Below, in pieces: positions 4,128 to 55,565 of a stretch of 64,000 bases of DNA. Under the pieces are notes generated by a model. That model was not told the DNA's origin. It saw nothing but the letters and a program-made list of their open reading frames with translations, and made no database searches. Positions within the stretch are counted from its first letter, which is position 1, and the number at the start of each line of letters is the position of its first letter. Source of the DNA: Prorocentrum cordatum (lineage: Eukaryota > Sar > Dinophyceae > Prorocentrales > Prorocentraceae); contig CAUYUJ010015750.1 of the NCBI GenBank assembly GCA_963575745.1, positions 67,501 to 131,500 of the forward strand, in the 5' to 3' direction. Position numbers and translations under genes: made by a program.

Positions 4128-4211
4128 GGGGGAGAAGCGAGGAGGAGAGGCCCTCCTAGGAGGCAGGAGGAGGAGGAGGAGGCAAGCGTACCACGACGAC
4201 GACGACGACGT
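4128..4211. repeat. (GGA)n and (GAC)n tract at the 3' end of LINE A1
   Basis: GGA-rich purine tract (4128-4183) then (GAC)n (4192-4211), ending four bases before the TAG stop (4217-4215) of the minus-strand LINE. The polarity (GGA on the plus strand) matches the tract at the LINE's other end (6339-6550). Confidence 0.85.
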
Positions 4212-4214
4212 CCC

Positions 4215-6314
4215 CTACCCGCGGAGCTCCTCGGCGATGGGCGCCGCGAGGTGCAGCTCGCGGACAGCGGCCGCTGCCGCGTCGAGATTCACTTGCGGAT
4301 GAAGGAGAGACGCAAGAGGAAGGTGACGGAGAGAGTGATAAATATGACATGCAATGAACACTTCCTCGAGAACGGGAACGGTGCAAATCGGGATCCCCCA
4401 TCTGGCCAATGGATCAGAGGACAACTGCCTATAACGTAGAACAATTGAAATAGACCAGGCAAGGCGAGGGCAGCTGGCGTAGTGCACTTGACGATCGGGC
4501 TCCCCCTCACATCCAAAAATGCATCCCCTACGACCACCTTCATTCAGTATACGATAAGAGGTGAGCCACGCTCCGCTCAAGGTTCTAATCCACGACCAGG
4601 CCCAAGAGGGCGGGACAACTCTGAGAACACTCTGGATGCTGGGCCAGACAATGGCCTGGATCATCGCGGCCTGCTCAGGCCACCACTTCAAGAGACGGGA
4701 CGCAAACAACTCTCCGAGGCCTTGCTGCGGCCAGCATTGGATACAGGCGATTTTGGCAGCACGCTGCGGCTTCACATCATTTGCAGAGCAGGCGGCTGCG
4801 GCAGCAACGTGCATTGGTCCTCCGACTCCATGCTCAGCGTCATGCAGATACTCAACGAAGGCACGGCACTTCCAGTGCCGCGGGCACCGTTTTCCTGCAG
4901 GCAACACTGTCAGGCGGCATTCGTCCAATTCCTGAGACATGGGCGTGTCTGTCATGCGCACCAGCCAACGATATACCCGATCATATTCAGGTAAAGTCAA
5001 CTTGGCCGTACGAGCGAGCGAAGCGATGCTGAGCACCTCCAACGGGCACACTCTAGGTGCATTCCACTCACGAAGACACGCCCAGTCCCGCGCACGGAAA
5101 GCACCAAGCGGGAGGCGGAACGCCTGAGCCAAGGCACCTTTCTCGGCGTCCTTCAGCTCTGTCGGCAACGGCACAAACTGCATGACGTAACTGAGGACAG
5201 ACACAGCACGCGTCGTGTACAGCACGGCCGACGATGATGCAGGCGTATTACCAACACCAATTGCCGCAGCACGATCACGGTACTTCTGGCGGGGGAGAGT
5301 CCAGGAGTCGATCAGCTCGGCCGCGGGACCAATCCACATACCCAGTTAAAACAGTTTAGCCTCAATTCGGAACTCGGACCACTCGGGAATGAACATGTTC
5401 AGAAACTTTTGGACTTGGGCTTTGAGAACAGGGGTAAACGGACCTGAGACTGGAGCCAAGACACACTTAGCTGGCTTGAGGCACAGGTGCGCGATCAGCT
5501 CAACGACTTCCATCACGCGTCTGAGCTGCAGCAGCAAACGGATGTCCGACAAGGCTCCACCCACGTCGTCCGCGCAAGCACGATTGATCCCCTGCCGCGG
5601 GATCTCGAAACTGCGGTTGAGGTCAATCAGCGCCGGCGTGAGGGCAATCGCGAACAGCGAGCCTGAAAGAGCACACCCCTGGATAATCCCAGAGCGAATC
5701 CAAAACGCATGAACCAGGATCCCCTGGACCGACATCACACCTTCGATACTGTCATACAGCGCCTCGACGAACATCAAAAACCCGATAGGACATCCCATTT
5801 TCCTCAAAACAAGGATCACGAACTCCTGAGACAGGCTCGGGAAAGCGTGGCCGTAGTCCAAGGCGTACAGCATTGGACAGCGGTCGTCAGCTTCAGGGCG
5901 GGCAGAGTGCACACGAGCGAGGGCGTCCACCTCTAAGATGTTCTGGCACAAGTTCCTGCCTTTTATGAACCCGCGCTGGCCCCGAGGAGCGAAACGATCG
6001 AGCGGTTTTCGGATCGCCATGTTCATGGTCGCAGTGAGAAATTTGATGCTGGTATCTCGAAGCCCGAGAACACGAACCGACGAAGCTTCTCCGTCGCAGT
6101 CGCCCTCTCTCGTGTCAGTGCTGGACTCTCCTTTCGGCAAAAAGGCTTGCAAGGTGACAGTCTCAGCGACAGGGATGCTGCATCCAGACATCATCCACCA
6201 GAGGAGGTCATGCAGCAGTATCAGTCCACTCGGGTGGGCCAGCCAGGCCGCATAACATAATCTGTCAACTCCTGGCGCTGAGTCGCTAACAGAGCGTGCA
6301 ACTCTCTTAAGCAT
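4215..6314 (-). pseudogene. LINE A1: 5'-truncated reverse transcriptase, nonsense-split
   Basis: Two same-frame blocks (6314-5346 and 5339-4215) form the C-terminal two-thirds of a LINE ORF2. Visible RT motifs are motif A (ALDYGHAFPS), motif B (GIIQGCALSGSLF) and motif C in the unusual form CADD (RACADDVGG) instead of Y/FADD. Near the C-terminus is CIFGC...H...C, a CCHC-like zinc motif. The blocks are separated only by TAA at 5348-5346, where the related LINE A2 has Tyr (KYLGMWIG), so this is probably a TAC-to-TAA nonsense change. The endonuclease and the front of the RT are missing: similarity stops about 25 bp before the (GGA)n tract at 6339. Role in an intact element: target-primed reverse transcription. 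This copy appears dead. It belongs to the same lineage as LINE A2. Confidence 0.9.
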
Positions 6315-6338
6315 CGCAAGAGACGGTGGCGGGCAGTC

Positions 6339-6550
6339 GGAGGAGGAGGAGGAGGAGGAGGAGGGGGAGGAGGGGGAGGGGGAGGGGGAGGAGGAGGAGG
6401 AGGAGGAGGAGGAGGGAGGAGGAGGAGGAGGAGGAGGAGGAGGAGGAGGAGGAGGAGAAGGAGGGGGAGGGGGAGGGGGAAGGGGGAAGGGGGAGAGGGA
6501 GAGGAGGAGGAGGAAGAGGAGGAGGAGGAGGAGGAGGAGGAGGAGGAGAA
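6339..6550. repeat. (GGA)n microsatellite at the 5' end of LINE A1
   Basis: Purine-only tract of GGA with GGGGGA and GAGGAA variants, about 212 bp, abutting the truncated 5' end of the minus-strand LINE. Confidence 0.95.
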
Positions 6551-7763: not shown

Positions 7764-8008
7764 GTGGGCCCTGGAAACGACAGGGCCGTTTTTGTTACCG
7801 GTTCCGTTTTGCCGTGTTTTTGCCGGTTCCGACGCCGTTTTTTTACCGGCTCCGTCGCCGTTTCTTGAACGGTTCCGGCTCCAACTCCGATCCTGGAGCC
7901 GTTTTTCCTTGCCGTTTCCGGTCACCGTTTTTTTGTTGCCGCTCCCATTTTCAAGGGACATTGTTCTGGAAACGGTGAAAAAACGGCCCTGCCGTGTCAG
8001 GGGCCCAC
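7764..8008. mobile_element. GTGGGCCC TIR element, copy A (MITE-like)
   Basis: 245 bp beginning GTGGGCCCTGGAAACGAC and ending as the inverse of GTGGGCCCCTGACACGG. TIRs are roughly 30 bp and include CAGGGCCGTTTTT. The interior is built of CGG/AACC-rich units such as GCCGGTTCCG and CCGTTTTTTT. Homologous units lie at 40721-40961 and 55324-55565. Sequence to the right (8009-8150) is also repeated, inverted, at 55190-55323, so copies A and C belong to a larger duplicated segment. No coding capacity. Confidence 0.7.
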
Positions 8009-8932
8009 TAAGGTCTGGGGGCGACTCTTTGACGATTTCCCAGAAGTTCGGAGTAGTTGTTTGACCATGTTTAGAGTTTCGCCCAACCGGAAGAGCCCTC
8101 TCGGGGCCCCTCCGGGGCCGAAGAGGAGTGGCGCGAGAGAGGCTATACGGTTAAGTCCGGGGCCCACAAAGGCCGGGGCAAGGTCGGAAGGCATGGCTTC
8201 GGCACATCGGGTCGGGACGGGGAGCGGGCGTCGGGTCGGGCCGCCCCGGCACGGGGCCGCGACCGCCGGGCGGGCGCCCGGCTGCATCTGCGGGGGGCGC
8301 CCAAGAGGGGGGGGCGTCCGAGGTGGGGGGTCGCAAGTCCAGTCCCGAGGCACGTGCGCGGCAGGGGACGTGCTGTACAAACACCTGAGGCGCGATGACA
8401 CCTGGGGAGATTGCATGGCTCTGGCCATGATAGCCAACCCTCCTGAATCATCACCCCCCTATCAGGCAGCCCACAAAGGACGTACGCGCCCAGACATGTA
8501 CATGAGCACGGCCCCTCGATCCGCGAGACTGGCCGCGTGATACGAGCATTCGGGCAATGCGTACTCTCGAAACCAGCGCGGATTCATGTACGTGTACGTC
8601 CTTCTCTCGCTCCTGACCTCCTGGCCGCCCCCGAGCATCTGCTCGCCGGGATATCGGAGCGGTCGGACCGAAGTGGAGCCTGCAGGGCTGGAGCGAGACG
8701 CGCCCCTGCGAGCAGCCCTGGTGACCAAGGAGTCGGCAGAACGTCGTGGTCCCCTCGGAAGGAGGTGTTCGGAAGGAGCACAGGGAGGATATGGAGGGGG
8801 AGGCAGCGCAGCAAGGTGAAGGAGGACGAGGACGACGAGGCGCGGGGAGGAGGCGTGGGAGGGGAAACTGGAGGGGCGGGGGCAGGGCGGGCAAGAGGGA
8901 GGGAGGGGGGGGTGATAGGGGGAAACAGGAGG
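8009..8932. other. Dispersed-repeat fragments, no gene
   Basis: 8009-8150 matches 55190-55323 in inverse orientation. About 8398-8465 (CTGGGGAGATTGCATGG through CATCACCCCCCT) matches about 50848-50915. The rest is GC-rich without recognisable coding signal. Confidence 0.45.
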
Positions 8933-20900: not shown

Positions 20901-20936
20901 CTCTCCTCCTCCTCCTCATCCTCCTCCTCCTCCTCG
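20901..20936. repeat. (CTC)n tract at the 3' end of LINE A2
   Basis: CTC on the plus strand about 30 bp beyond the LINE stop codon. Polarity equals that of the tract at the LINE's 5' end (25906-25950). Confidence 0.9.
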
Positions 20937-20967
20937 AGCGTGCCAGGGGGGGCCGCGTCCGATGGTC

Positions 20968-23900
20968 TCAACCTCGAGGTGCGCCTAGCCTCGCGATGGT
21001 TGCGGGGCGGGCGACCTGGCGACGAACTGCACTTAGCACAGCTCGACAAGCTGCGGCGGAGATGGGGTGGTCAGGCAAAGTACGGAGAGCATCGCGCAGG
21101 CATGGCGCATGGACACAAACAATGAGAGATTCACGGGGGGGGGGGGGGGGAAGAAGCCCGAGACGGGCGATGGGACAGGAGGGAAGAGGGCGCTGGACAG
21201 CGAGAGCGAGGGCACGACAGAAATGAAGACAACGCCAAGTATGGGAGAAACTGTGGGGCTCGGGGCACCCAAATATACACGGGTTCTGCTCTTGAAAGCG
21301 TGTTGACGTGATCCACCCACCAGAAAGCGTCTTAAGGATTGCAAAGGACCAGGCTGGGGGAAGGGAGGAGAGGGCGGCTCTCACATCGCCCCAAGGAACA
21401 GAGTCAATTTCGGCAGCTTTATCTGGAAACCAACGATATAGGCGCTTGCGAAAAAGAATACGGAGATTGTCAGGATAAACGTTAAGGAGAGCTTCTCGAT
21501 AGAGGATACGTTGGGGGTGAAGAGCGCGCGGGGGAAGATGAGGACGGGCTTGCTGGACATCCCGAAGAGCATGGATGGCCTGGCGGAACAGAGGGTGGAG
21601 ACGATGCCAGTCGGGGAAACCACTCGCTGCCGCCTCCAGGTTCAGGGCGAGCGCGGGTGCCTGCCAGAATTCAGGCTACGGGCGCCCAGAGATGGCGCGC
21701 ACAAGGGAATATTCCTCAGCGCAGGTTCTGTGGGGCATCCTCGAGATCGGTTCCCAACAGGTAAACGTGAAAAGCGCAGCCCGAATAAGTTGAACAGCAT
21801 TGAGGATCCACAAACTCGGGATTTTCGGACCGCCCCACTGGGCTAAGTTGCTCCACGATCCTTGGCTGAAACAGCAAAACGGGAGGCGAAAGACCGAGGC
21901 CAGCACGCTGTGCTCACGCTGGCGGAGCTCTCGCGGTAGAACCTGAAATTGGCCGACATAGGACAGCGTGGTGGCCGCCCGTACAGCATAAAGCGAGGCA
22001 GCTGTCGATGTCGGGGCTCCAGAGCGGCCGATGCTTTTCGAACGATCCAGGAATTTCTCGAACGGGCTCTTCCAGGAGGTCTCAGGAGTGACTCCAGGGC
22101 CGATCCACATCCCAAGATACTTCACCATCGGAACAACGTCGATCGAGGTCCACCTGGGGGTGAGGGAGGCGATGCGGGTCTCGCACATACGTTCGAGCTC
22201 ATCAGTGTAGGGGCCCGCCAGGGGCACCAGCTTGCATTTGGGAGCTTTGAGGGTGAGGTGGGCGAGCTTCTGGGCGTCCCCGAAAACGTCGGCGAGGAAA
22301 GGGAGGGACCCCAGGCTCCTAAGCACCGCTCCCACATCATCAGCACATGCGCGAGATACGCCGCGGTCGGCGTCCTCAATCAGCAGGCGGAACGAGCGCA
22401 TGAATGGGTCCATGCCCCAAGCGAAGAGGGAGCCACTGGCGGGGCAGCCTTGGATGATGCCACTGAGCACCTGAAAAAGCACGCTGGTGTGGCCACCGAT
22501 CGAGCCGACGCAGACGACGTCCTGGCACAGAAACCGAAGAAAGGCCATGAGCGGTCCAGGAAGGTTCAGGCGTTGCAAAACCATGAACAGCCAGTCCTGA
22601 GACAGAGAAGGAAACGCCTGCCCGAAATCAAAACATTTCAAACTCGGAAGCGACGTCATCGGCGAGGGCTGCATACTGAATACTCGGGCGAGGCCGTCGA
22701 GTTCGATAATGTTGTCCCCGAACTGGCGATGTGGTACGAAACCGTTTTGGGCGGGGTCAGTATAACGGGAGAGTGATTTCGTAAGCCCACGGATGCAGAA
22801 ACCAGCCAGAATCTTGTTGTCGCAGTTCTTAAGGCCCAGGGGGCGGGCATCTCCAACGGCGCGCATGATTCCACCTCCCAAACTGTCTCCTGGTTCCTCC
22901 CCTTTCGGAATGAACACCCCAGTGAGGAAGTTAAACCCGTACAAGAGCGAGTGGCCCTCCAGGACCCGCTGGAGGCTCTCGTACAAAATCTCTGCGCCGA
23001 GCGGAGCCTTCAGCCAGGCGCTGTAGGGCAGCAGGTCGGGGCCTGGCGCGCTGTGACACAGCCTGTGCAGGTATCGCTTGAAGGGGCCGAACGCCGGCGG
23101 CGACAGGGCGTCGGACGGCATCGCGAGGTCGAAGCGATCCAGAAAAGCAGCGGCCGCTTCACCGTCAAAAGTTTTGGCACGAAACACAGGGGCCCAATGA
23201 CTAGCCAGGGCGCCCAGGATTTGCCGGGGACGATTTTCAACATGTAACTCTCCAGGGGTCCGAACTCCAGCCAGAGGCATCGTTTTTTCCAAATGGGGCC
23301 CACAGACGGTCTCGTTTCCGTTGGCGAGCGGCACGCTGTCTCGCACGAAGCAGTCGGTTGGGGTTCATCACCGCACCGTTCTCCGCCTGGAGCTTGCGCT
23401 CGGCGGACTGCGCCACTGCCCAGTGGAGCTTATTCGAAAGCTGTGCGAACGCGGCGGGATCGGCGAGCGAGGGAGCGCGGGCGCGGTGGTCAAGCAGGAG
23501 GTGTTCACGACTAAGAGGATGAGAACGATGGAGGAGAAGAGCAAGATCCCAATCACGACGAAATACCGCCCTAGCCATCCCCCGCATCATGAGATACTTC
23601 GCTAGAACACTATTCGGACGTTTCAGAATGATAGTATTTCTGGCATGTTGAGCAGCAGCTTTCATAAGGGATTTGTAGTAGTCAAGACGAAGAGCTGGAG
23701 AGAGATGATCGACAGGAGCCGCCTCCCAAGCCGCCAGCAAAAACTGCCGATACTCGTTAGTCAGGAAGATCTCCCGCGGGATAGGACGCTCCGCAGGAGG
23801 GAGGGGAGGGCGCACCTGGATCGTTGCCGACACCGCAGCGTGATCCGATACCCTCGACGCGTGCAGAACCTCGGGATGCTCGACGACCTCGCCCCCAGTG

Positions 23901-24667
23901 GCGCACTGAGAAAGGACCCATCCAGGGGCCGAACAAAACAGTCTGTCGATATGGGTAAGGTTTCGCTGCGCGTGATGGTAGTGAGACGGGGCAGAAAGCT
24001 GAAACTCCACCATGCGGTCCAGGACGTTTTTCCAGGGCTGAGGGAGGGGAACGGGTTCAGGAAGGGAAGGGTCACGATCGCCTCGAACAGGGGCGGGGAC
24101 ATGGGAGGGGAGGTTGAGGTCCCCCGTCACGTACACAACACGGTTCAATGGGTCGTCGGCGGCCGCGTCAAGCTCCATGAGATCTGCTCCAGAACCGCCC
24201 TCTTCTCATCCGCAGACGGGCCGAAGTTGCGCGCATTGAAATGCGAAACCCAGGAGGTATCATTGGCAGCACTGATCTTTGTGTGTAATACTCGTCCAGG
24301 AACCAGGGGAACCGACATGGTAAGGGGGAGGGGGGAGCCTGTGCACTTCAGCCTGTCCTCAGAGTAGGAAAAGGTGGGGATCAACGTCAACACGCCACCA
24401 GCATTAGAGATGGAGTGGGGGGAGAACTCAGCAGAGAAGGGGAGATTGAGCTGGTGAAGCAGATCGGCGACATCTGCAGGGTGGCCGTGCGTCTCTTGAA
24501 TTGAGACCAGCGATCCAGCCCTAAGAAGAGAGCGCAGATACCTGACCTTTCGCAATCTGATTGCGTGGTCATGGTGGAAAAGGGCACGGGCATTCCAGGT
24601 CACAACCCTCACTGGCGTACAGGTCGGTGACGCGGCGGCGGTTCCTGTCAGCAGAACGTGAGCTTGG
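20968..24667 (-). pseudogene. LINE A2 ORF2: endonuclease plus reverse transcriptase, broken
   Basis: Downstream of ORF1, three minus-strand blocks make up one ORF2. (1) About 24620-24150: start of an AP-type (EEP) endonuclease (VVTWNARAL, then IQETHG). (2) 24178 to about 23290: rest of the endonuclease with GDLN, HIDRLF and SDHAAV. (3) About 23290-20968: RT with motif A CFDFGQAFPS, motif B GIIQGCPASGSLF, motif C CADD, then LGMWIGP and a C-terminal CIFGC...H...C zinc-like motif, ending in TGA at 20970. Breaks: frame changes near 24150-24178 and near 23290, and TAG at 21678-21676, after which the same frame stays open for 236 codons. An intact product would nick DNA and reverse-transcribe the element RNA. 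Longest copy in the window and sister to LINE A1. Sequencing error cannot be excluded for the single-base breaks. Confidence 0.92.
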
Positions 24668-25696
24668 CTAGGAACGCCACTCAGTCGGCTGCATGTTGCC
24701 GCAGATTGCAGCCATGACCGATGCCTCGATGTCGGTGCGCTCGATGCCCACGGCCGTGAGGTTGGCGATGGACCATTGCACCGCGGGAGGCGATGTCGTG
24801 GAAATCGGAGAGATCTTGAGCAGCGGGCGCCAGTTGCACGAGACCTCACGAGTGTCCACATCCTTGTAGAACTTCTTGTTGGGGTAGCGCTCACGCAGAA
24901 GCTGTACAGCTGCCTTGAGCGCAATCTCCTTCTTGACCGTGCATGAATTCTTGTCCGAACCCACGAAGATGGGCCCAGGCTCGTTCGTGACGCTGTTGGC
25001 CATGAAGCGGCGGAACTCCCCGTTGGGCAGCCGCATGTTGCCCAGGCATTGTTGAACTTCCCGAGCTGCATAGCTCGGGGTACCCGCCATCTGTAGCACG
25101 TACTTGGTGCCCGTCGGGTCGCCCTTAATCTCGTAATCGTCGCTGGAGATGTTGCACGAGGCGAGCCACTGGTCAAGGGCTGCTTCAGCACGAGCCATGG
25201 CGGTCTGAAGCTTGCACCTGATGGTGATGATCGTCGGATCGGTGGGGCGGTTGAAGGACTGGTCGACCGACTTGGGCGCAGGGGTGGCCGTGCGGTCGAG
25301 CTCGAGTGCAGAACGAACGTCGCGGATCTCAGCCTCCACCTTGTCCATGGGCGACCCCTGGGACTTCTGAACGTGCTCGAGTGTGGCCATCCGTCCTTCC
25401 ACAGACTTCGCGATGTTGCCACATGTGGCAGACAAAGAGGACGTAAGAGTGGAAAGGCTGCTTGACATGGAGGATTGAGCGGCTTGAACAGAAGCAGTGA
25501 GCTCATCACGCAGAGCAGCAATCGCATCCCTGAGCTGCACGTTCGTGAGGGCCGCGTCGTCACACACCTCAAAGCCGTCCTCGTCTGTCTTGGATCTTTT
25601 GGCCGGCTGTCCGCGCTCGGGGGTGGGAATGCCTGTCGATCCACCTGGCGACGGCTCGAAAGACGAGAATGGAGTGGATGGTCCTAAAGACGCCAT
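24668..25696 (-). CDS. LINE A2 ORF1 protein
   Basis: 342 codons from ATG at 25696; this is the first ATG after the spliced leader, leaving a 187-nt leader-to-start region. N-terminus is Ser/Pro-rich with a basic PAKRSK stretch. Residues about 45-130 (ALRDELTASVQ through VEAEIRDVRSALEL) have heptad-like spacing, probably a coiled coil. The C-terminal half ends with KKEIALKAAVQLL, FYKDVDTREVSCNWRPLLK, resembling the C-terminal domain of L1-type ORF1 RNA-binding proteins (inference from pattern). In LINEs, ORF1 trimers package element RNA. ORF2 follows directly in another frame. This frame is undamaged, unlike ORF2. Function assignment rests on position and architecture. Confidence 0.8.
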   Translation of the reverse strand: MASLGPSTPFSSFEPSPGGSTGIPTPERGQPAKRSKTDEDGFEVCDDAALTNVQLRDAIAALRDELTASVQAAQSSMSSSLSTLTSSLSATCGNIAKSVEGRMATLEHVQKSQGSPMDKVEAEIRDVRSALELDRTATPAPKSVDQSFNRPTDPTIITIRCKLQTAMARAEAALDQWLASCNISSDDYEIKGDPTGTKYVLQMAGTPSYAAREVQQCLGNMRLPNGEFRRFMANSVTNEPGPIFVGSDKNSCTVKKEIALKAAVQLLRERYPNKKFYKDVDTREVSCNWRPLLKISPISTTSPPAVQWSIANLTAVGIERTDIEASVMAAICGNMQPTEWRS

Positions 25697-25883
25697 CTTC
25701 GCCGCGGGCACAGAATCTGTGAAGCGGTTCCCAAAAGAGGCGTGGCAGGGCCAAGGGAACTGGGCCGTGGAGCGATCTTGCCGCGGGCGCTGTGCCCCAA
25801 GCTGCTCGAGAGAGCAGGCTACGGACGGGCTCCGACCTAATCACTGGTTCTCGGGCGTCTATAGCCCTTCACAGCGTTTAAGT

Positions 25884-25905
25884 CTTGAGCCAAAATGGCT
25901 ACGGT
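25884..25905 (-). other. Dinoflagellate spliced-leader sequence at the 5' end of LINE A2
   Basis: On the minus strand this reads A, then CCGTAGCCATTTTGGCTCAA, then G: all 22 positions of the dinoflagellate SL consensus (first base D = A). It is directed into ORF1 and directly touches the (CTC)n tract at 25906. It is a copied mRNA leader rather than an SL RNA gene: no 5' splice donor or SL RNA body follows, and the next bases (ACTTAAACGC) run into the LINE 5' UTR. Confidence 0.95.
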
Positions 25906-25950
25906 CCTCCTCCTCCTCCTCCTCCTCCTCCTCCTCCTCCTCCTCCTCCT
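25906..25950. repeat. (CTC)n microsatellite at the 5' end of LINE A2
   Basis: Perfect 45-bp TCC/CTC run directly joined to the spliced leader. Confidence 0.97.
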
Positions 25951-29196: not shown

Positions 29197-30225
29197 AGGA
29201 TGGAAAGGAGGAGGAGGAGGAGGAGGAGGAGGAGGAGGCAGAGGAGGAGGAGGAGGAGGAGGAGGAGGAGAAGGAGGAGGAGAAACAGGAGGAGGAGGAC
29301 GAGGAAGACGAGGAGGAGGAGGACGAGGAGGAGGAGGAGGAGGACCAGGAGGAGGAGGAGGAGGAGGAGGACGACCACGACGTCGCCGTCGCCGTCGCAG
29401 CCGCTGTCGTTTCGTCGTCGTCTTTATCGTCCGCGGTTCGTCGTTTCCGTCCTCCTCCTCCTCCTCCCTCCTCCGTCCACCTCCTCCTCCCTCCTCCCCC
29501 CCCCCCTCCTCCTCCTCCCTCCTCCTCCTCCTCCCTCCTCCTCCTCCTCTCTTCCTCCTTCCTCCCCTCCTCCTCCTCTCTGTTTCTTCTTCTCTTTTCT
29601 TTCTCCCCTCCCTCCTCGCTCCTCCTCTCCTCCTCCTCTCCTCCTCATTCTCTCCTTTTCCTCCTCATGTTTCCTCCTTCTCCTCTCTCCTCCTGTTTTC
29701 TCCTCCTTCCTCCTCCTCCTCCTCATCCTCCTCCTCCACCTCCTCCTCCTCTCTCTTGGCCCTCTCCTCCTCTACCACCACCTCCCCTCCTCCTCCTCCT
29801 CCTCCTCCTCCTTCTCCTCCTCCTGTTTATCCTCCTCCTCCTGTTTCTAACTTCCTCTTCCTGTTTCTCCTCCATCCTCCTCCTCCTCCTCCTCCTTTTC
29901 CTCCCCCTCCTCATCTCCCTCTCCTCCTCCTGCTCCTCCTGCCTCCTCCTCCATCCTCCTCCTCCTCCCCCTCCTCCTCCTCATGTTTCTCTCCTCCTCG
30001 CTCCTCCTCCTCCTCCCTCCTCCTCCTCTTCATCCTCATCTCATCCTCCTCCTCTCTTCTTCCTCCTCCTCCTCCTCCGCCCCCCTGTTTCTCCTCCTCC
30101 TCCCTCCTCCTCCTCCTCTTCCTCTCCTTCGCCTCCTCCTCCTCCTCCTCATCAATCACCTTCCCATTAACCATCACCATCACCATCACCATTCACCATC
30201 ACCACCATCATCATCATCTCATCAA

Positions 30226-30256
<31 letters not shown>

Positions 30257-30286
30257 CCATCATCATCATCAGCAGCATCGTCATCG

Positions 30287-30352
<66 letters not shown>

Positions 30353-31090
30353 GCATCAGCATCATCATCATCATCATCATCATCAGCAACATCAGCAGCA
30401 GCATCATCATCAACATCATCATCCTGTTTCTCCTCCTCCTCATCCTGTTTCTCCTCCTCCTCCTCCTCCTTCTCCTCCTCCTCCTCCTAGTCCTGCTTTT
30501 CCTCCTCCCCCTCCTCCTCCTTCTGATTATCCTCCTCTTCCTCTTCCTCATCATCCTCCTCATCTTCATCCTCATCCTCATTCTCCCGTTTCCCTTCCTC
30601 CTCCTCCCCCTCCTCCTCCTCCTCTCCTCCTCCTCCTCCTCCTCATCCATCATCCTCATCCTCATCCGCCCCTTCCTGTTTTCTCCTCCTCCTCCTCCTC
30701 CTCCTCCCTCTTCCCCCTCCTTTTCCTCCCTCCACCTCCTCCTCCTCCTCCTCCTCCTCCTCCTCTTTCTCTTGTTTCTCCCCCTACCCATCATCATCAG
30801 CAGTCGCCCCCTCCTCCTCATCCTCCTCATCCTCATCCTGTTTTTCCTCCTCCTCATCCTCCTCATGCCTCCTCATCAGCATCATCATCATCAGCCTCCT
30901 CCTCCTCCTGTTTCTCCTCCTCCTCCTCGTTCTCATCCTCCTCCTCCTCCTCCTCTCCCTTCTCCTCCTCCTCCTCCTTCTCCTCCTGTTTCTCCTCCTC
31001 CTCCTCCTTCTCTTCCTCCTCCTCCTCCTTCTCCTCCTCCTCCTCCTCCCCCTCTCCTCCTCCGCCTCCTCCTCCTTCTCCTCCCCCTGA
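29197..31090. repeat. 1.9-kb trinucleotide block with polarity switch
   Basis: GGA on the plus strand (29197-29380) changes across a CGT-rich bridge to TCC/CTC (29450-30150). It then changes to ATC/CAT (30165-30425) and back to TCC/CTC with ATC insertions (30425-31085). Apparent long frames are Ser/Pro/Leu/Ile or Arg/Glu runs. Confidence 0.97.
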
Positions 31091-41144: not shown

Positions 41145-44100
41145 TTATATTATGGAATTGGCCGCTTTGGCCTGTTCCTTAAGACGGACCATTTCACATA
41201 AGGCTGACGCACGCTGCTCATAGGAGGGGGCCGTCCAGGAACTTGAGTGCGAGGCCCTCGCAACCGTCGGAGCGTCTGGGACAGGAGGGGCGGCGGATAG
41301 GCCAAGCCTAGCAAGAGGAAGCGCACGATCGAGAGCAGCCCGCACTCTGGGGTTCGGGCAATGGCCCTTCCTGAACTCAAGCAAAATCTCCAAACCTTTG
41401 CGAGACGGAGCCTCACGCTGACGGCCTGATTTCAAACCCCTCCCTTGGGACCAACCCCCGCAACGAAGACAGAGGATCTGCCCCCTGGACGGGCGCCGAC
41501 ACGACGCAGGCCTCGCACCAGGATGCGACCTAGATCCGACCATGGCGACGAGCTTGTGGCCCATGGAGTCAGGGAGCAGACCGCGGAAGAACGGCGGCAG
41601 CCCGCGACAACCATCCATCGGGACGGTATCGTAGCTGCCTTCAGCAACCCTGAAAAAGTTCCTGCACTGGAGGCCAAGCTCACTCTTTTTCCAAACGTGC
41701 CACGACACTTGTCGCCGCGACCTCGGGGCACTGGTTCGGTGAGGACTTGCCCACCGCACCCCGTTGTCAGAACAGGGAAGAACACTCGCTGCAAGCTTCA
41801 TGAAATGCCCCGCTCGTTCGCCAGCCAAATTCAAATCATTGATGAAGTCTGGCGTGGGGGCAGGGTGCATGCTGTCAGCAGCGGCATTGGCAATGGCAAA
41901 GACCTGTTCTTCGCCATCTAGGCCCTGAATCTCTGACTCATCTCTATGAGCCTTCACGTGCCGGATTTCCTGAATCAGGGCTGTGCCTTCAAGCTGCTGC
42001 GCAAAAGCTCGCACTCCAGCGTGCTAGCTGGAGAGGGCGAGCAGGTCATTCACATTTTTCTGACACAATCTGATGGCGGCTTCGCAGTCGGCCCCGAGAA
42101 CTGTAGGGCGCGAGGCTATCTGACCGCAAATCGCAATGCCACAGTGTTCGGCCATGGCTGGCGTCTGCGGCAGCACTCCTGGGACGATGCCTTTGACCAC
42201 CGCCACAGGATCCTCTCCCTCGTCTGGGCAGACAGCTACTGCCCATGCAGCCCGCTGCAGCGGCCGAATCCAAGGCTTCGTGCTCGAACCATCGGACGCC
42301 AATCGCAGCGGGAACTGGGAGGTTAAATCAGCGATCGATTCAGGCTCCATGTCCACCTCGTTTCCCTGCCCGTCATAGAGATACACCTCAGACGACATGG
42401 ACGGGCAAGGCAGCGAGCCATCTCCATACGTGTACACCGCGCGCGTGAAAATTGGGTTGTCGGGCTCGTCGCGCGCAGCGCTGAGGAAAGAAGCAGGCAC
42501 CTCAGATGTTGCGCGCGCCTCGAGAACTCGGGGAAACGCGCAGGAATAGAGCCTGTGGTGGACTGCGTCCTGCTCGCCACACCCACACAACCCGTCACAC
42601 AAGTAACACGAACGCCAAGCTCGCGCATGGGTCCGCAGTCCACCACATCCGCAGCTCTTGACTATGTACGTCTGAAATCGGTTTAACTTTCTGGCTTTCG
42701 GCCCCACGGCGTCCCGAATCAGGTCCCGAGTGGCCCTGGTTCCTGGGGGAAACCCGAGCTTCCGAGCAAAATCCAGCTCCCTCTCTCTCTCTCTCTCTCT
42801 CTCTCTGCAGTCCAGCTTCCATCTGTGCTGCTGAGAGGGCAGGGGGCGTCGCAGACAAATCAACTTGGAGACCTTGGTGGTCTATCCAAGAGGGCGGACC
42901 TTCAGCGTGCCAGCCAGCGTGCTTCAAACTCAGGACGGCTCTAGAAATATGCCCCTGGGACTTGTTCCAAGAGGGGCACTCGAGAGGCCTAGACAGCTCC
43001 CAAAGTTTCACAAGCTCAGCGTGTGAGACAAGAGATACATCAGTGCGCCGCAAAGCGGTCCATATCATCCTGCACCATTGCACAGCTGGGGCTATTGCAA
43101 AGCAGGCACTTCCGTCAGCAAACAAAACACCCTTAGCCGTTAGCGAAACGCCAATACCAAGGCATGCGACACTTGTCTTGCACACTGACAGAGGTAGGTG
43201 CAGTGCCGTGCACACATCTCTAGCAGGCTCCTTGGATGTGGACAGGATGGACGGCTTGCCTGGGTGCAGCTCAGCTTCCAGCTTAGCGCTGGCGGCCTTG
43301 AACTGGTTCATGCCAGCGACGGCCACCGACTTGGCTATCACGTAGTCGCTGGGCGAAACGTGGAACCCTGCGTCATCGATGTAGTTCTGGAAATCCACGA
43401 ATGGTGCCAGCTCTACGAAGGTGTCGAAGGCATCGACAGCATGGACCTTGATCGCAATGTCGCTGTAGCCGTCGCCTGCGAGCAAGCCGCGTGTGGCCAC
43501 TAGAGCCAGTTGAGCATGGTGCCTCCCGAGTCGGATGATCCTCGGGCACGCCCACATGTTAACGACGAGCTTCAGCCAACAAACTGGGGCTCCATGTCGC
43601 TGGAACTTGATGCGCAAGTCCTCCAAAGGAATCGACTCATAATATTTACTCCAGTCTGCAACAATCAGAACTCCGTACTTGTGCGCGGTCTGGTTGCTCT
43701 CAGACCGCGCCGCCTGCAGCCAAGCGCAATCAGTGGCAGAACGCCCACGACTAGCACCCCTGTAGCGTCGATCAAGTTCAGAGTGCATGTGGTCAACCAT
43801 GGGTTTGCGTGCTCGCTGCCACGTTCGATATACAGCTGCGTACAATATAATTAATCGATTGCCACCCGACGGTTTGCCTAACATCGGCATCTGGATCCAG
43901 CACAGCTGCTTGGGCAGCATCCCGATGGCCTCCGACGCCGACAGCAGCAGCGCTAGCGTGTCTAGGCCGTCATCGTCCAGCAGCATCAGGTGCCTGGGGT
44001 GGAAGTTATCGTGGCTCGCGGTCGTCCTTGCAGGGAAGGACTGCGCTGCCCGTCGTAGATCATCTGGCTTGAGTCGCGGACACATGGATCGATCAGTTGA

Positions 44101-48409: not shown

Positions 48410-50717
48410 CTACAAGTCTTGGTGCTTGCGGCTCCTCCGATCCAGCGCCTGCGGCCCCTTGGCTAGGCCGTCCAGCGCGTTCTGGCAGTCCGTGAAGATA
48501 CGCAGCGGCGTAGTGGCAACTTTGATCGCCTGCAGCACTGCGTGCAGTACCGCTCGTGGAATGCTCTGCGGCCCTGGCAAAGGCCCGAAACAAGCGCGCT
48601 CCAGCTCGAGGTCGTCATCGATGCGGATGAATCCCCGGCCTGCGCGCCGCAGCGGTGCGAAGTCGCCGAACTGCCACGAGCCGCCGGTGTAGATGTCACC
48701 CGTCGCTAAGCCGCGCCACTCGCCCTCGGTGAGCCACGCGTCGCATGACTCGAGGTTCCACAAGCTTAGCTCCTCCGCAGGGTCACTGGTGATGCCGCGC
48801 CCCCACAATGCCTCGGCCCCTGGTCCAGGCCAAGGGTTGAACGATGCGTCGGCCTCCAACTCGCTCTCGATGTGCATGTCGAGCTAGACAGGCAAAAGTA
48901 CGGTGACGTTCTGTGCCTGCTGCCGTCCAGCATGCTCTGCAAATGGCATCTAGCGCCGCCCCCATCGCGTGGAGGCGCGCCTGTGGCCATGATCCGCCGC
49001 AGAACAGGACTCGTGCTCGTGCGCGGAGAGCTTGTGTCCAGCGTCCGCGTAGCGGCCTCCGTAGCAGCGCCCTCGCGGGCTCGATGAAGATAGAACCGAT
49101 GCCGTGGATCTGGCCCCACTGCTGAACCAACCCGTCCTTCAGCTGCTTCTCCGTCGCCGTGCGCACGAGGTGGTACAGCTCCTGCAGCAACGTGTAGCTC
49201 AGGTCGTACACCTGCCCGTCGACCGCGATGCTGTGGTCGGCCTGCGCCATCCAGCCGAGCCGCCTCACCGCGGCCACGAAGGCTCCAGCAGGGCCACGCA
49301 CAATCTGCCAGGGCACCTTGCTCTTGGCCACCTTCATGACCCGCGTCCCCCATGCGCTCTGCAGCTGATCCATTAGCTGCTTGTCGGTGTTGGCCTCCTG
49401 CCACGCGGTCACGATGATGGGCCCGCTGTTCAAGAGGCATCCTGGATCCACGTCGTCGCGCTCAGCAGCGTGAGGTTGGTGGACCTGTCCTTGGTGCAGC
49501 CTGGCATGGCGGTGGCCACTCTCGTCCGCAGCTCCTGCAGCTTGGAGTCCGCCATGCCCACCGTCGCCGAGCCGTAGAGCAGCGCTGGCACCTTGGCATG
49601 GCGCACCAGCATCTGCGTTGCTCCTCCTGCCCTTCGCACTACTGCAATCCGCGACTGCCTCGCCGCAAACTTCAGTGCGCGCATATTGGTGGCTCCAACT
49701 CGGCGTCGCCTGTCAGCCGCCGAGGTCACGCCGAGGTGCTTCTCGTGCATGACGACGCGCACCCCCAGGCGTCTGGAGCTCGTGTTGATGATGTCGCCCA
49801 GCGCGGTCTTGGAGGTCAGGGTGACCGTCATGACCTCCGCGCCGCGCGAGACTGCCATGTCCAGCCTCACTTCGAACATGTAGATCACTGCCGCGGTGAG
49901 CTTGGGGTGAAGGTGCTGGACAGACTCCCTGAGGCCATGCGTGGCCATGGCGAGGTCGTCGAAGAATAAGCAGGTGCCCGCCCAGGGATACCGGTTGACC
50001 AGGTCGTCCAGCTCCAGGATGATCACCATCTTGAGGCAGAACGGCGCGTAGTGGCTGCCGGCCACGATGCCCCGCTGCCGCGCCTTGCCCGTCGTGTAGC
50101 ACCCGTCGAGGACGATGCGCCGCACCATGTTGTAGATCCTCAGGACGACTCCCATGATGATGGGGTTGAAGCGCCACCGCCTCGCCGCCGCCCAAACCTT
50201 CTCGTGCGTGACCAACTCGAAGCACTTGACCGGGTCGACGTAGATCACCGCGTACTCGTAGCCGCCAGCTCGCGCTGCCTCGCAGCACAACGCCTGGAGC
50301 CAGGCTGCGCGCTCCGAAGAGCGCCCGCGCCGAGCCCAGTCATGGGCTATCTGGCCGGCCGCCTCCCAGCGCCTGGCGTACGGGATGCGGATGGTCTCCC
50401 ACACGCGCGCCAGCTCGGGGATGAGGCCGAGGTTGCGGTAGCCGCCTGCAGGTTTCGCCATCAGGTAGAACAGGATGGTCGCCTGTGCCAGCGGCCACGG
50501 CGCGCCTCGCTCCACTGCATTTAGAACGCTTCCCACGCGTGCCGCTCCGTGAACTCCTCCATGTCTCCAAAGGCGCGGGTGCCCGTCTTGGCGCGAAAGC
50601 GCCCGCACGCGTCCAGTACCTCCTTGGGCGTGATCCTCGGGACTGCGTACTCCTCGCGTTCCATGTCGCTCGGTGGCTGGCAACAGGGCGCGTCGGGGTC
50701 GTATTCGTCTGGACAAT
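48410..50717 (-). pseudogene. LINE C: reverse transcriptase plus decayed RNase H
   Basis: Four frame blocks. About 50717-50525: start of RT (YAVPRITPKEVLDACGRFRA). About 50525-49430: RT core with YAVIYVDPVKCFELV (motif A), GIVAGSHYAPFCL (motif B), CLFFDDLAMAT (motif C, FFDD) and LGVTSAADRRRR. About 49450-48900: connection (AQADHSIAVDGQVYDLSY). About 48877-48410: RNase H-like domain, where the usual TDGS Asp is Gly (DIYTGGSW) and the expected Glu near RAVLHAVLQAI is absent, while the later Asp is kept (FTDCQNAL). The endonuclease is missing; similarity begins immediately at the GGA tract. The catalytic losses make the RNase H inactive by inference. Third LINE lineage in this window. Confidence 0.88.
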
Positions 50718-50800
50718 GGGGGAGGTGGAGGAGGAGAAGGAGGAGGAGGAGGAGGAGGAGGAGGCGGAGGCGGAGGCGGAGGCGGAGGCGGAGGCGGACG
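50718..50800. repeat. (GGA)n/(GGCGGA)n microsatellite at the 5' end of LINE C
   Basis: GGA run passing into GGAGGC hexamers, adjoining the truncated LINE. Confidence 0.95.
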
Positions 50801-51173
50801 AGGGGGCGGGTCAGGGGACGCATCGAATGAAGAAGCGATGGCCGTGAAATCTGGGGAGATCTCACGGCCCTGGCCATGGTAGGCAACCTCTCCCCTGATC
50901 ATCACCCCCCTCTTTCGACGCCTGGCAAATTCGGGCCATAAGCAAAGCCTCCGGCGGCCGTTCGGGACGATCCACGCGCCTCCGCAAAGCCCTCGACGAG
51001 GCGCAGCTGCTTGGAAGCATCCCGAGGCTAGAAAACCTTGCTGAGAAAATGCGAAGTCAGTCGAGAGCTTCGATCTCCGAACGCCCGAACGCCATCGCCC
51101 GTCCCCCACCCCACACCGAGTCAACACCCCCCTCCTTGGACGACCCCGCACTCCCCTCCCCCCCGCCCCCCTT
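50801..51173. repeat. Dispersed-repeat fragments
   Basis: About 50848-50915 matches 8398-8465. About 50975-51040 (CGACGAGGCGCAGCTG, GCATCCCGAGGC) resembles the tandem-unit region at 46300-46350. No gene. Confidence 0.5.
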
Positions 51174-51306
51174 GCCATCGCTCTCGGACGTCCATGCCCG
51201 ATGCATGTGTCGGTTCCGTGCGCGCCTTCCTGTTTTCTCCCTAGATGGCCCAGGATGCTCCTCGATGCTCCTCGCCAAGGAAACACCCACACGCCCGAGC
51301 GACGCC
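51174..51306. mobile_element. GCCATCGCTCGG TIR element, copy 2
   Basis: Left GCCATCGCTCTCGGACGT, right ACGCCCGAGCGACGCC. The interior keeps GGATGCTCCTCGATGCTCCT. Most diverged copy. Confidence 0.65.
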
Positions 51307-54751: not shown

Positions 54752-55323
54752 TTAGGTCGGGCATGCCCCCCTACAGGCGGATTCTGGACGAAAAGTAAAA
54801 CATACCCCAAACATGCCCCAACCTATACCCAGATATAATCCAAACAAAAATCCCCCGATTATTTTTTGGCTACCTTCGATCGAATGTTCCTCCTGTAGAG
54901 GGACAGGCCCGACTTGGTCCTGGGCCCGAATGAGGCCTCAGTCCTCAAGGGGGCCCGGGCCCCCAGCAGTGCCAAATCTTCTGGGGCGCGAGGCGCGGCC
55001 CCGGGTGGGCTCCCCGCAGCTTCAGGTCGGGCATGTCCTCCTACAGGCGGACGTTGGGCGAAACTTACTGAAGATAGTCAAACAGCTACTCCGAACTTCT
55101 GGGAAATCGTCAGAGAGTCGTCCCCAGAATATTGCTTGACTATGTTTGAATCTTCCTTCTGTAGAGGGACAGGCCCGACTTACCCGTAGCCTCTCTCGCG
55201 CCACTCCTCTTCGGCCCCGGAGGGGCCCCGAGAGGGCTCCTCCGGCTGGGCGAAACTCTAAACATGGTCAAACAACTACTCCGAACTTATGGGAAATCGT
55301 CAAAGAGTCGTCCCCAGACCTTA
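54752..55323. repeat. Nested copies of the TGTAGAGGGACAGGCCCG / GTCGGGCATG repeat
   Basis: GGTCGGGCATGCCCCCCTAC (54752) and GGTCGGGCATGTCCTCCTAC (55023) alternate with CTCCTGTAGAGGGACAGG-type copies in inverse orientation (about 54890, 55155). AGTCAAACAGCTACTCCGAA with GGGAAATCGTCA recurs at 55077 and 55267. The part 55190-55323 is inverse to 8009-8150. Confidence 0.7.
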
Positions 55324-55565
55324 GTGGGCCCAGGAAACGGCAGGGCCGTTTTTCACCGTTTCCGAAAAAATGCCACTTGAAAATGGAAACGGCAAGAAAA
55401 CGGCGACCGGAAACGGCAACAAAAACGGCCCCAGGAGCGGAACCGGAGCGGGATCCCGCAAAAGAACGGCGACGGAACCGGTGAAAACACGGCGTCGGGA
55501 CCGCCCAAAAAAACGGCAAAACAGAACCGGTAACAAAAAACGGCCCTGTCGCTTCCAGGGCCCAC
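55324..55565. mobile_element. GTGGGCCC TIR element, copy C
   Basis: 242 bp from GTGGGCCCAGGAAACGGCAG to GTCGCTTCCAGGGCCCAC. TIRs of about 30 bp. Interior units CGGAAACGGCAACAAAAACG. Confidence 0.75.

Follow-up and report, generated by a model that had tools for sequence, protein, structure and literature searches.

LINE copies with the dinoflagellate spliced leader at their 5' end and GGA/TCC microsatellites at their borders

LINEs insert by a target-primed mechanism, and their copies often lose the 5' end. Their promoter usually lies inside the transcribed region. The SLACS and CZAR elements of trypanosomes insert into leader RNA genes. Spliced leader exons are also named as a LINE target in the accessible part of PMC4640811. 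In dinoflagellates, the spliced leader (DinoSL) is found in the genome as relics in retrogenes, and the excerpts available of PMC6050394 and PMC12014239 describe the studies by Slamovits and Keeling 2008, Jaeckisch 2011 and Song 2017. The element class behind these retrogenes is given as unknown by Song et al. 2018, with LTR elements favoured (PMC6050394, in the part available).

The leader-tagged LINEs described here resemble the DinoSL-relic retrogenes, as far as the available text of the two papers goes, in having a genomic leader, tandem relics and a proposed origin in a reverse-transcribed trans-spliced mRNA. Those retrogenes carry host genes, and the element that makes them is given as unknown; here the cargo is a LINE, the leader is complete and the inserts lie at GGA/TCC-type sites. 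We will argue that several LINE families of this genome very probably move by inserting trans-spliced mRNAs at sites of the GAGGAG or TCC type, which would place them in microsatellites.

The window element and its 5' junction

The window is the whole 64 kb stretch of DNA that was analysed. LINE A2 runs through it on the minus strand from 25905 to 20936 (4,970 nt), followed by (GAG)n at 20935-20903. The features are:

25905 to 25950, minus strand: (GGA)n microsatellite directly 5' of the LINE, TCC on the plus strand (tandem repeat finder, 100% matches; GGA upstream in 25 of 25 readable loci); best read as the left half of the interrupted target tract
25884 to 25904, minus strand: 5' terminus of the LINE, formed by an exact 21-mer of the dinoflagellate spliced leader, with the variable first base at 25905 (the 26 loci read start here)
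25697 to 25883, minus strand: 5' UTR, 187 nt, without ATG
25837 to 25881, minus strand: structured RNA element just after the leader, two predicted helices, 13 pairs (alignment A3, model R1)
24668 to 25696, minus strand: ORF1, 342 aa, predicted long coiled coil followed by an RRM-like domain, L1 ORF1p-like fold
24145 to 24663, minus strand: ORF2, N-terminal half of an apurinic-type endonuclease (Pfam Exo_endo_phos 1-80, E 0.0019, below the curated cut-off)
23237 to 24178, minus strand: ORF2, C-terminal half of the endonuclease and linker (Pfam Exo_endo_phos 136-225, E 0.008, below the cut-off)
21676 to 23346, minus strand: ORF2, reverse transcriptase up to the in-frame stop (Pfam RVT_1, PF00078, E 1.3e-8, above the cut-off; relatives P0001-P0006)
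20968 to 21675, minus strand: ORF2, C-terminal part past the in-frame stop, from the translation, with a CCHC-like motif CX3CX7HX4C seen by eye
20936 to 20967, minus strand: 3' UTR with the end ...TGGCACGCTC, a fixed 3' terminus (same in L060-L064 and 10 further copies)
20903 to 20935, minus strand: (GAG)n tract directly 3' of the LINE (the GAG tracts of L060-L064 differ); best read as the right half of the interrupted target tract
4183 to 6338, minus strand: LINE A1, 5'-truncated and diverged (36% aa identity over the reverse transcriptase part), with TCC on its own strand on both sides (6339-6548 and about 4163-4182)

The exact 21-mer CCGTAGCCATTTTGGCTCAAG at 25884-25904 is the only leader match in the whole window at up to three mismatches; none of 100 dinucleotide shuffles gave any match, and about 2e-8 exact matches are expected from the composition (G+C 60%). 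The earlier note counted all 22 leader bases. Twenty-one of these stand exactly, but base 22 (25905) is an A that is compatible both with the variable first base of the leader and with the (GGA)n run, so the window copy alone proves 21 leader bases. At 15 of the 25 sister loci read, a T or C occupies this position beside the same GGA tract, and base 22 therefore lies outside the tract at those loci. Along the minus strand the order is (GGA)n, the 21-base leader, ACTTAAACGC..., and the ORF1 ATG after 187 nt with no ATG between, the spacing that the earlier note had given. The uninterrupted repeat that it placed directly before the leader was likewise recovered as a perfect (TCC)15.3 at 25905-25950, with 100% matches, which is GGA on the LINE strand. 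A GGA-type repeat reappears at the 3' end of the LINE (20903-20935). No older internal leader was seen by eye inside A2; the only recurring piece, CCGTAGCC, comes from the end of the leader that is not expected in a relic.

The reverse transcriptase is accompanied by a fixed 3' end, 5' truncation and target-site duplication among the copies, and the element is a LINE on these grounds. The window copy is complete but decayed, as its ORF2 is broken by two frame changes (near 24178 and near 23300) and one in-frame stop. The relative P0001 holds a reverse transcriptase above the cut-off and an Exo_endo_phos match below it (E 0.021) in one frame, and a part similar to the C-terminal region of the A2 ORF2 is present in L014, L018, L020, L024 and L026. 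A search for ORF2 relatives in viral contigs and genome contigs found none. ORF1 is also open in five sister loci (L031-L035), and 15 relatives from other loci of the genome were aligned at 20-95% identity. The AlphaFold2 model of ORF1 (mean pLDDT 78, pTM 0.54) has a helix at 52-136 followed by a mixed domain, and the top three PDB matches by Foldseek are human LINE-1 ORF1p (probability 0.99, best E 7e-4). ORF1 is therefore predicted to be L1 ORF1p-like (coiled coil, then RRM) as a fold class only, with TM-scores of 0.23-0.41 and without a sequence match; a protein search found no homologue at E 0.001.

The 47 nt past the leader are predicted to fold into two helices in 19 loci, and the fold is common to diverged relatives. 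In alignment A3 (19 sequences) 97.1% of the cells are paired and three pairs have changes on both sides. The pairing percentage and the covariation score were reached by 4 of 500 shuffles and the number of further pair types by 185 of 500; the covariation is modest, and each double change is confined to one cell. A further match of model R1 lies in L019 immediately past the leader (E 0.001), where the downstream reverse transcriptase is of the LINE_D type. The sole match in an Rfam search of the 5' UTR was far below the gathering score. As a guess, the structure could bind the reverse transcriptase or ORF1p.

Several other features were observed in the window. Two ORFs bearing reverse transcriptases of other LINE types lie on the minus strand at 42595-44085 and 49430-51292. 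Each has a same-strand TCC tract within or close to its 5' part (44571-44409 for the first, 50764-50727 for the second), and their relatives stand behind leaders elsewhere. An imperfect TCC tract of 1.6 kb at 29450-31088 is the longest tandem array of the window and is free of leaders. An inverted repeat of 167 nt (7979-8145 and 55187-55353, 96% complementary, 47 kb apart) is an interspersed repeat.

Sister copies and their insertion sites

The 4.13 Gb host genome was searched with a query made of the leader, the 5' UTR and ORF1, and the leader in this query favours leader-bearing copies. Scoring 40 of the 387 candidates gave at least 44 matches in 30 loci; at least 37 of these matches begin within the first three query bases. 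Four of the 30 loci are internal fragments; the other 26, which include the window copy (L030) and are spread over 25 contigs, were read and make up 26 of the matches starting at base 1-3. The leader stands at the start of every one of the 26, exact in 20 and with one or two mismatches in 6; its first base is T in 12, A in 11 and C in 3, and a tandem leader was seen in none of these A-type loci. The earlier note had looked to other loci for independent junctions of leader and microsatellite, and these were found at many: a GGA repeat of at least 18 nt lies within 60 nt upstream in 25 of 25 readable A-type flanks, and TCC in 0 of 25. The 26th locus (L044) is at a contig end, where the flank is unreadable. 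Two pairs share their flanks (L049/L050, a 99.8% duplicate, and L039/L040, 86% similar), so the readable junctions include at least 23 independent ones.

Six full-length copies, the window copy and five sisters, measure 4,933-4,984 nt and run from the leader to ...TGGYACGCTC and directly into (GAG)n. All six share one 3' terminus. The proposal of the earlier note that A2 has its whole 5' end, and that ORF1 and ORF2 together make up the full design, is borne out. Conserved non-leader sequence upstream, which the earlier note had named as evidence against its reading, was looked for in the six full-length copies and not found; the sequence before the leader differs locus by locus but is always a GGA tract. 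A more diverged sixth relative (L065) enters a GGA-rich stretch near the expected end, although its alignment stops earlier, and L066, the seventh 3' stretch fetched, gave no match.

A search with the 3' end gave 20 matches, of which 16 reach the end (query 735 or more). These are the six complete copies and ten others, namely two long diverged copies (L147 and L148, whose 5' ends were left out of the reading) and eight short copies of 70-151 nt (L149-L156). GAGGAG follows GCTC directly in 16 of 16 copies that reach the 3' end. A GGA repeat of at least 9 nt within 60 nt downstream is found in five of the ten further copies and in three of the eight short ones. A GGA tract is not obligatory for insertion, and the constant part is GAGGAG.

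The short copy L153 is bordered by a perfect target duplication of 18 nt, GAGGAGGTGCCGGGACTG, which starts with GAGGAGG. L155 has a duplication of 14-15 nt that begins after GAGGA, a hint that the RNA may supply part of GAGGAG. Among the eight short copies tested, only these two and the in-tract copy L149 have duplications that exceed the swapped controls. The diverged candidates in L150 and L156 do not rise above those controls, and L151, L152 and L154 have no duplication exceeding them. The target core looks like GAGGAG, which is dense in microsatellites. The enrichment of tracts at complete copies relative to short ones could reflect annealing at the second junction or a bias of the search. 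Independent insertions with the same repeat on both sides are observed (25 of 25 5' flanks and six 3' flanks), as in elements that target microsatellites. A terminal motif GGT(T)ACG(T/C)T(C/T) was also noted by eye before the tract in L014, L026, L016, A1 and A2, which belong to diverged families; it reads GGC in the window copy, and L023 is without it.

Leaders across the genome and proposed renewal of the 5' end

Exact leaders number 14,218 in the 4.13 Gb genome (7,201 and 7,017 on the two strands), against 0 for the reversed pattern. The leader is common in this genome and not rare, and the striking point is its placement at the 5' end of a LINE. An uninterrupted run of 12 purines precedes 1,371 of the 14,218 leaders and one of 12 pyrimidines precedes 4,110, where about 3.5 of each are expected by chance at equal purine and pyrimidine frequencies. 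A sample of 100 leaders was read, which are the first listed (contigs C1-C114) and not a random draw. GGA/TCC lies directly upstream of 63 of these (44 TCC and 19 GGA) and any tandem array within 15 nt upstream of 80; the backgrounds, taken from one 64 kb window, are 1,132 of 18,274 positions (6%) and 163 of 1,318 pieces (12%), respectively. The sampled leaders without a preceding GGA/TCC are 37, and those without any tandem array are 20. Three leaders on contig C39 (L102, L103 and L104), 3-5 kb apart with near-identical flanks (ATACAAGCATCC...) and no upstream tandem repeat, are perhaps a tandem gene array.

The first 20 leader loci were read about 6 kb past the leader, and at least 14 have a LINE reverse transcriptase downstream in the same orientation; none was seen in L011, L013, L017, L021, L025 and L029 within the roughly 6 kb read. 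Pfam/NCBIfam scans of ten and one frames from the six unassigned loci gave only a KOW match in L017 and weak matches below the cut-offs. LINE_D phmmer matches in L013, L017 and L023 were set aside because the ORF holds low-complexity runs. In five of the 14 LINE loci (L014, L016, L019, L023 and L026) a tract of the same type recurs downstream at LINE-length distance. L022 and L024 have downstream GGA/TCC tracts only nearer than a LINE length, and no such tract occurs in the stretch read of L010, L012, L015, L018, L020, L027 and L028.

When the sampled leaders are grouped into families by the sequence after the leader, the strand of the tract tends to agree within a family. The largest example is a 15-member family with 14 TCC tracts and one CA repeat, while the A-type group in the 100-locus sample has four GGA and one TCC. 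A 5-member family (L020, L077, L086, L107 and L142, with 5' sequence like GCCATGAACCGTCCCGACGAC) has GGA/TCC at 0 of 5 loci, and its members follow an AT repeat (L020), a CA repeat (L142), a longer-unit repeat (L077), a short CACAGA run (L086) and no array (L107). Overall, 105 of the 111 pairs formed within families match in strand type, and most of the pairs come from one large family; the shuffled mean is 63.6, and 105 was reached in 2 of 5,000 shuffles. This agreement argues that the element, not the host, picks the tract.

The leader has two AG ends, an internal CCGTAG and the terminal CTCAAG, and a leader already in the genome could be used again at either. Splicing at the first AG would leave the common inner relic, whereas splicing at the second would replace the old leader without a trace, as A-type copies look. 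Relics in transcripts follow the same pattern, and TG has been suggested as a non-canonical acceptor for a shorter relic (PMC12014239, in the text available). The tandem relics that the earlier note had anticipated do occur: a perfect leader followed by CCATTTTGGCTCAAG makes 1,202 exact tandem leaders genome-wide, and the LINE loci include exact inner leaders in L018 and L023 and degenerate ones in L015 and L027. The 100-leader sample has 10 exact and 11 degenerate inner leaders, compared with 0 of 1,000 in the control. In some cases the inner leader is mutated beside a perfect outer one, the outer having been selected as exact. Renewal is seen in families other than the A-type only, and the use of the old leader as an acceptor would explain it.

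Proposed mechanism, alternatives and comparison with known systems

With a genomic leader heading an insert derived from mRNA, these copies belong to the DinoSL-tagged retrocopies. The earlier note took the template to be a mature trans-spliced LINE mRNA; our results favour the same template and extend it to further families, with trans-splicing of the LINE RNA, its transcription, the nicking specificity, the annealing of the RNA end and acceptor use of the old leader all inferred from DNA. The transposition template would be a mature, capped, trans-spliced LINE mRNA, which would receive the leader at an acceptor immediately ahead of the 5' UTR and from which ORF1 (L1 ORF1p-like) and ORF2 (endonuclease and reverse transcriptase) would be translated. 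The endonuclease would nick the strand opposite a site of the GAGGAG type. The 3' end of the RNA (...TGGYACGCUC, and perhaps GAGGAG as well) would prime at the nicked site, and reverse transcription would proceed to the first base of the leader. As (GGA)n tracts are dense in GAGGAG-type sites, complete copies are seen inside such tracts. For other LINE families TCC repeats would take this role, and for one family perhaps CA/AT-type repeats. Since the inserted leader ends in AG, it is usable as an acceptor when the copy is next transcribed, and the 5' end could then be renewed every round.

An alternative is a single capture of the leader, which the LINE would have passed on ever since, with a promoter at or before it and no need for new trans-splicing. 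The single leader on a conserved 5' UTR, without an inner relic, at 26 of 26 A-type loci fits one-time capture, but re-splicing at CTCAAG would give an identical single-leader junction. The same leader also stands on other LINE families and on one or more inserts in which no LINE sequence was detected (L017), its first base varies between T, A and C among relatives, and the 1,202 tandem leaders include mutated inner leaders beside perfect outer ones selected as exact; we consider a single capture improbable. Slightly less probable again is that the flanking GGA/TCC repeats are products of insertion (a repeat-type 3' tail, slippage or non-templated junction filling) and not the target. Many LINEs have simple-repeat 3' tails, and GAGGAG follows GCTC here even where the flank is without a GGA tract. 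Against this, the tract lies on both sides with locus-specific impurities, the duplication of L153 itself starts with GAGGAGG, so that the site was already in the target, and a second set of LINEs lies in TCC tracts on their own strand. An RNA-specific GGA tail was rejected as the whole story, as A1 and the L014/L016/L023/L026 group carry same-strand TCC.

The position of the leader at the element border would also suit insertion of a LINE within spliced-leader RNA genes in the manner of SLACS and CZAR, with the leader as flanking target DNA. However, next to the A-type leader comes ACTTAAACG or a sequence close to it and not a GT splice donor, the preceding sequence is a locus-specific microsatellite, and GT follows only 4 of the 100 sampled leaders. 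The microsatellite flanks and the lack of a GT donor after the A-type leader led us to reject this reading, which we regard as highly improbable. Chance or an assembly artefact is the least probable explanation and can practically be set aside: the window holds one copy only, but no shuffle in 100 gave a leader, 14,218 copies stand against 0 reversed, and the 26 family loci lie on 25 contigs.

The preferred reading, transposition of trans-spliced LINE mRNAs into GAGGAG- or TCC-type sites, can be extended tentatively. LINEs of several families might need no 5' promoter of their own, the leader serving as the next acceptor and each family aiming at its own repeat, and the same machinery might make, from host mRNAs, the leader-tagged retrogenes that are known from dinoflagellates. 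L017 bears on the last point. At 448-1529 it has a leader, a degenerate inner leader and an insert of about 1 kb, whose open frame matches a KOW motif (E 7.7e-5); TCC lies on both sides, and the insert is itself within the TCC tract behind the L016 LINE, a nested use of one target. We read it as a host-type retrogene without detected LINE sequence, and as it is leader-tagged and in the same repeat type, it points to LINEs as the makers of retrogenes. A separate observation is L001 (IMGVR_UViG_3300045993_001077, IMG/VR), a 7.2 kb contig filed as viral with two exact leaders on the minus strand (2746-2766 and 2893-2913), AT-rich DNA on one side, a GC-richer ORF on the other and an ATG about 60 nt past a leader. 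It could be a dinoflagellate mRNA retro-inserted beside AT-rich DNA. If LINEs move as trans-spliced mRNAs, the host supplies the 5' end after transcription and any copy that is read through could yield a proper mRNA. This would account for what may be thousands of 5'-complete LINEs, to judge from the 14 of 20 leaders that head a LINE and the 14,218 leaders, and the leader would be a tag for each insertion.

No report of LINEs with leader 5' ends or GGA targets was found in the open-licence literature searched, as far as its accessible text goes. R1 and Tx1 clades, HERO and Togen likewise insert into simple repeats or repeated sequences, but the available part of PMC4640811 mentions no GGA/TCC target or 5' leader for such elements. 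The SymbioLINE-Dnmt elements are also dinoflagellate LINEs with ORF1 and ORF2; their ORF1 has a DNA methyltransferase, and use of a 5' leader is not discussed in the portion of PMC5890265 available. The transcript of the C. elegans retroelement Cer1 can be trans-spliced to give SL1-bearing RNA, but Cer1 is an LTR element and its 8 kb RNA is apparently not trans-spliced (PMC3315495, available part). SLACS and CZAR are likewise LINEs tied to a spliced-leader sequence, whereas here the leader belongs to the copied RNA. L1Tc and ingi of trypanosomatids, according to the accessible text of PMC8190864, live in hosts that likewise have polycistronic transcription and spliced-leader mRNA, but they carry the internal Pr77 promoter and have unspliced transcripts, whereas the 5' end of the LINE described here is the leader itself.
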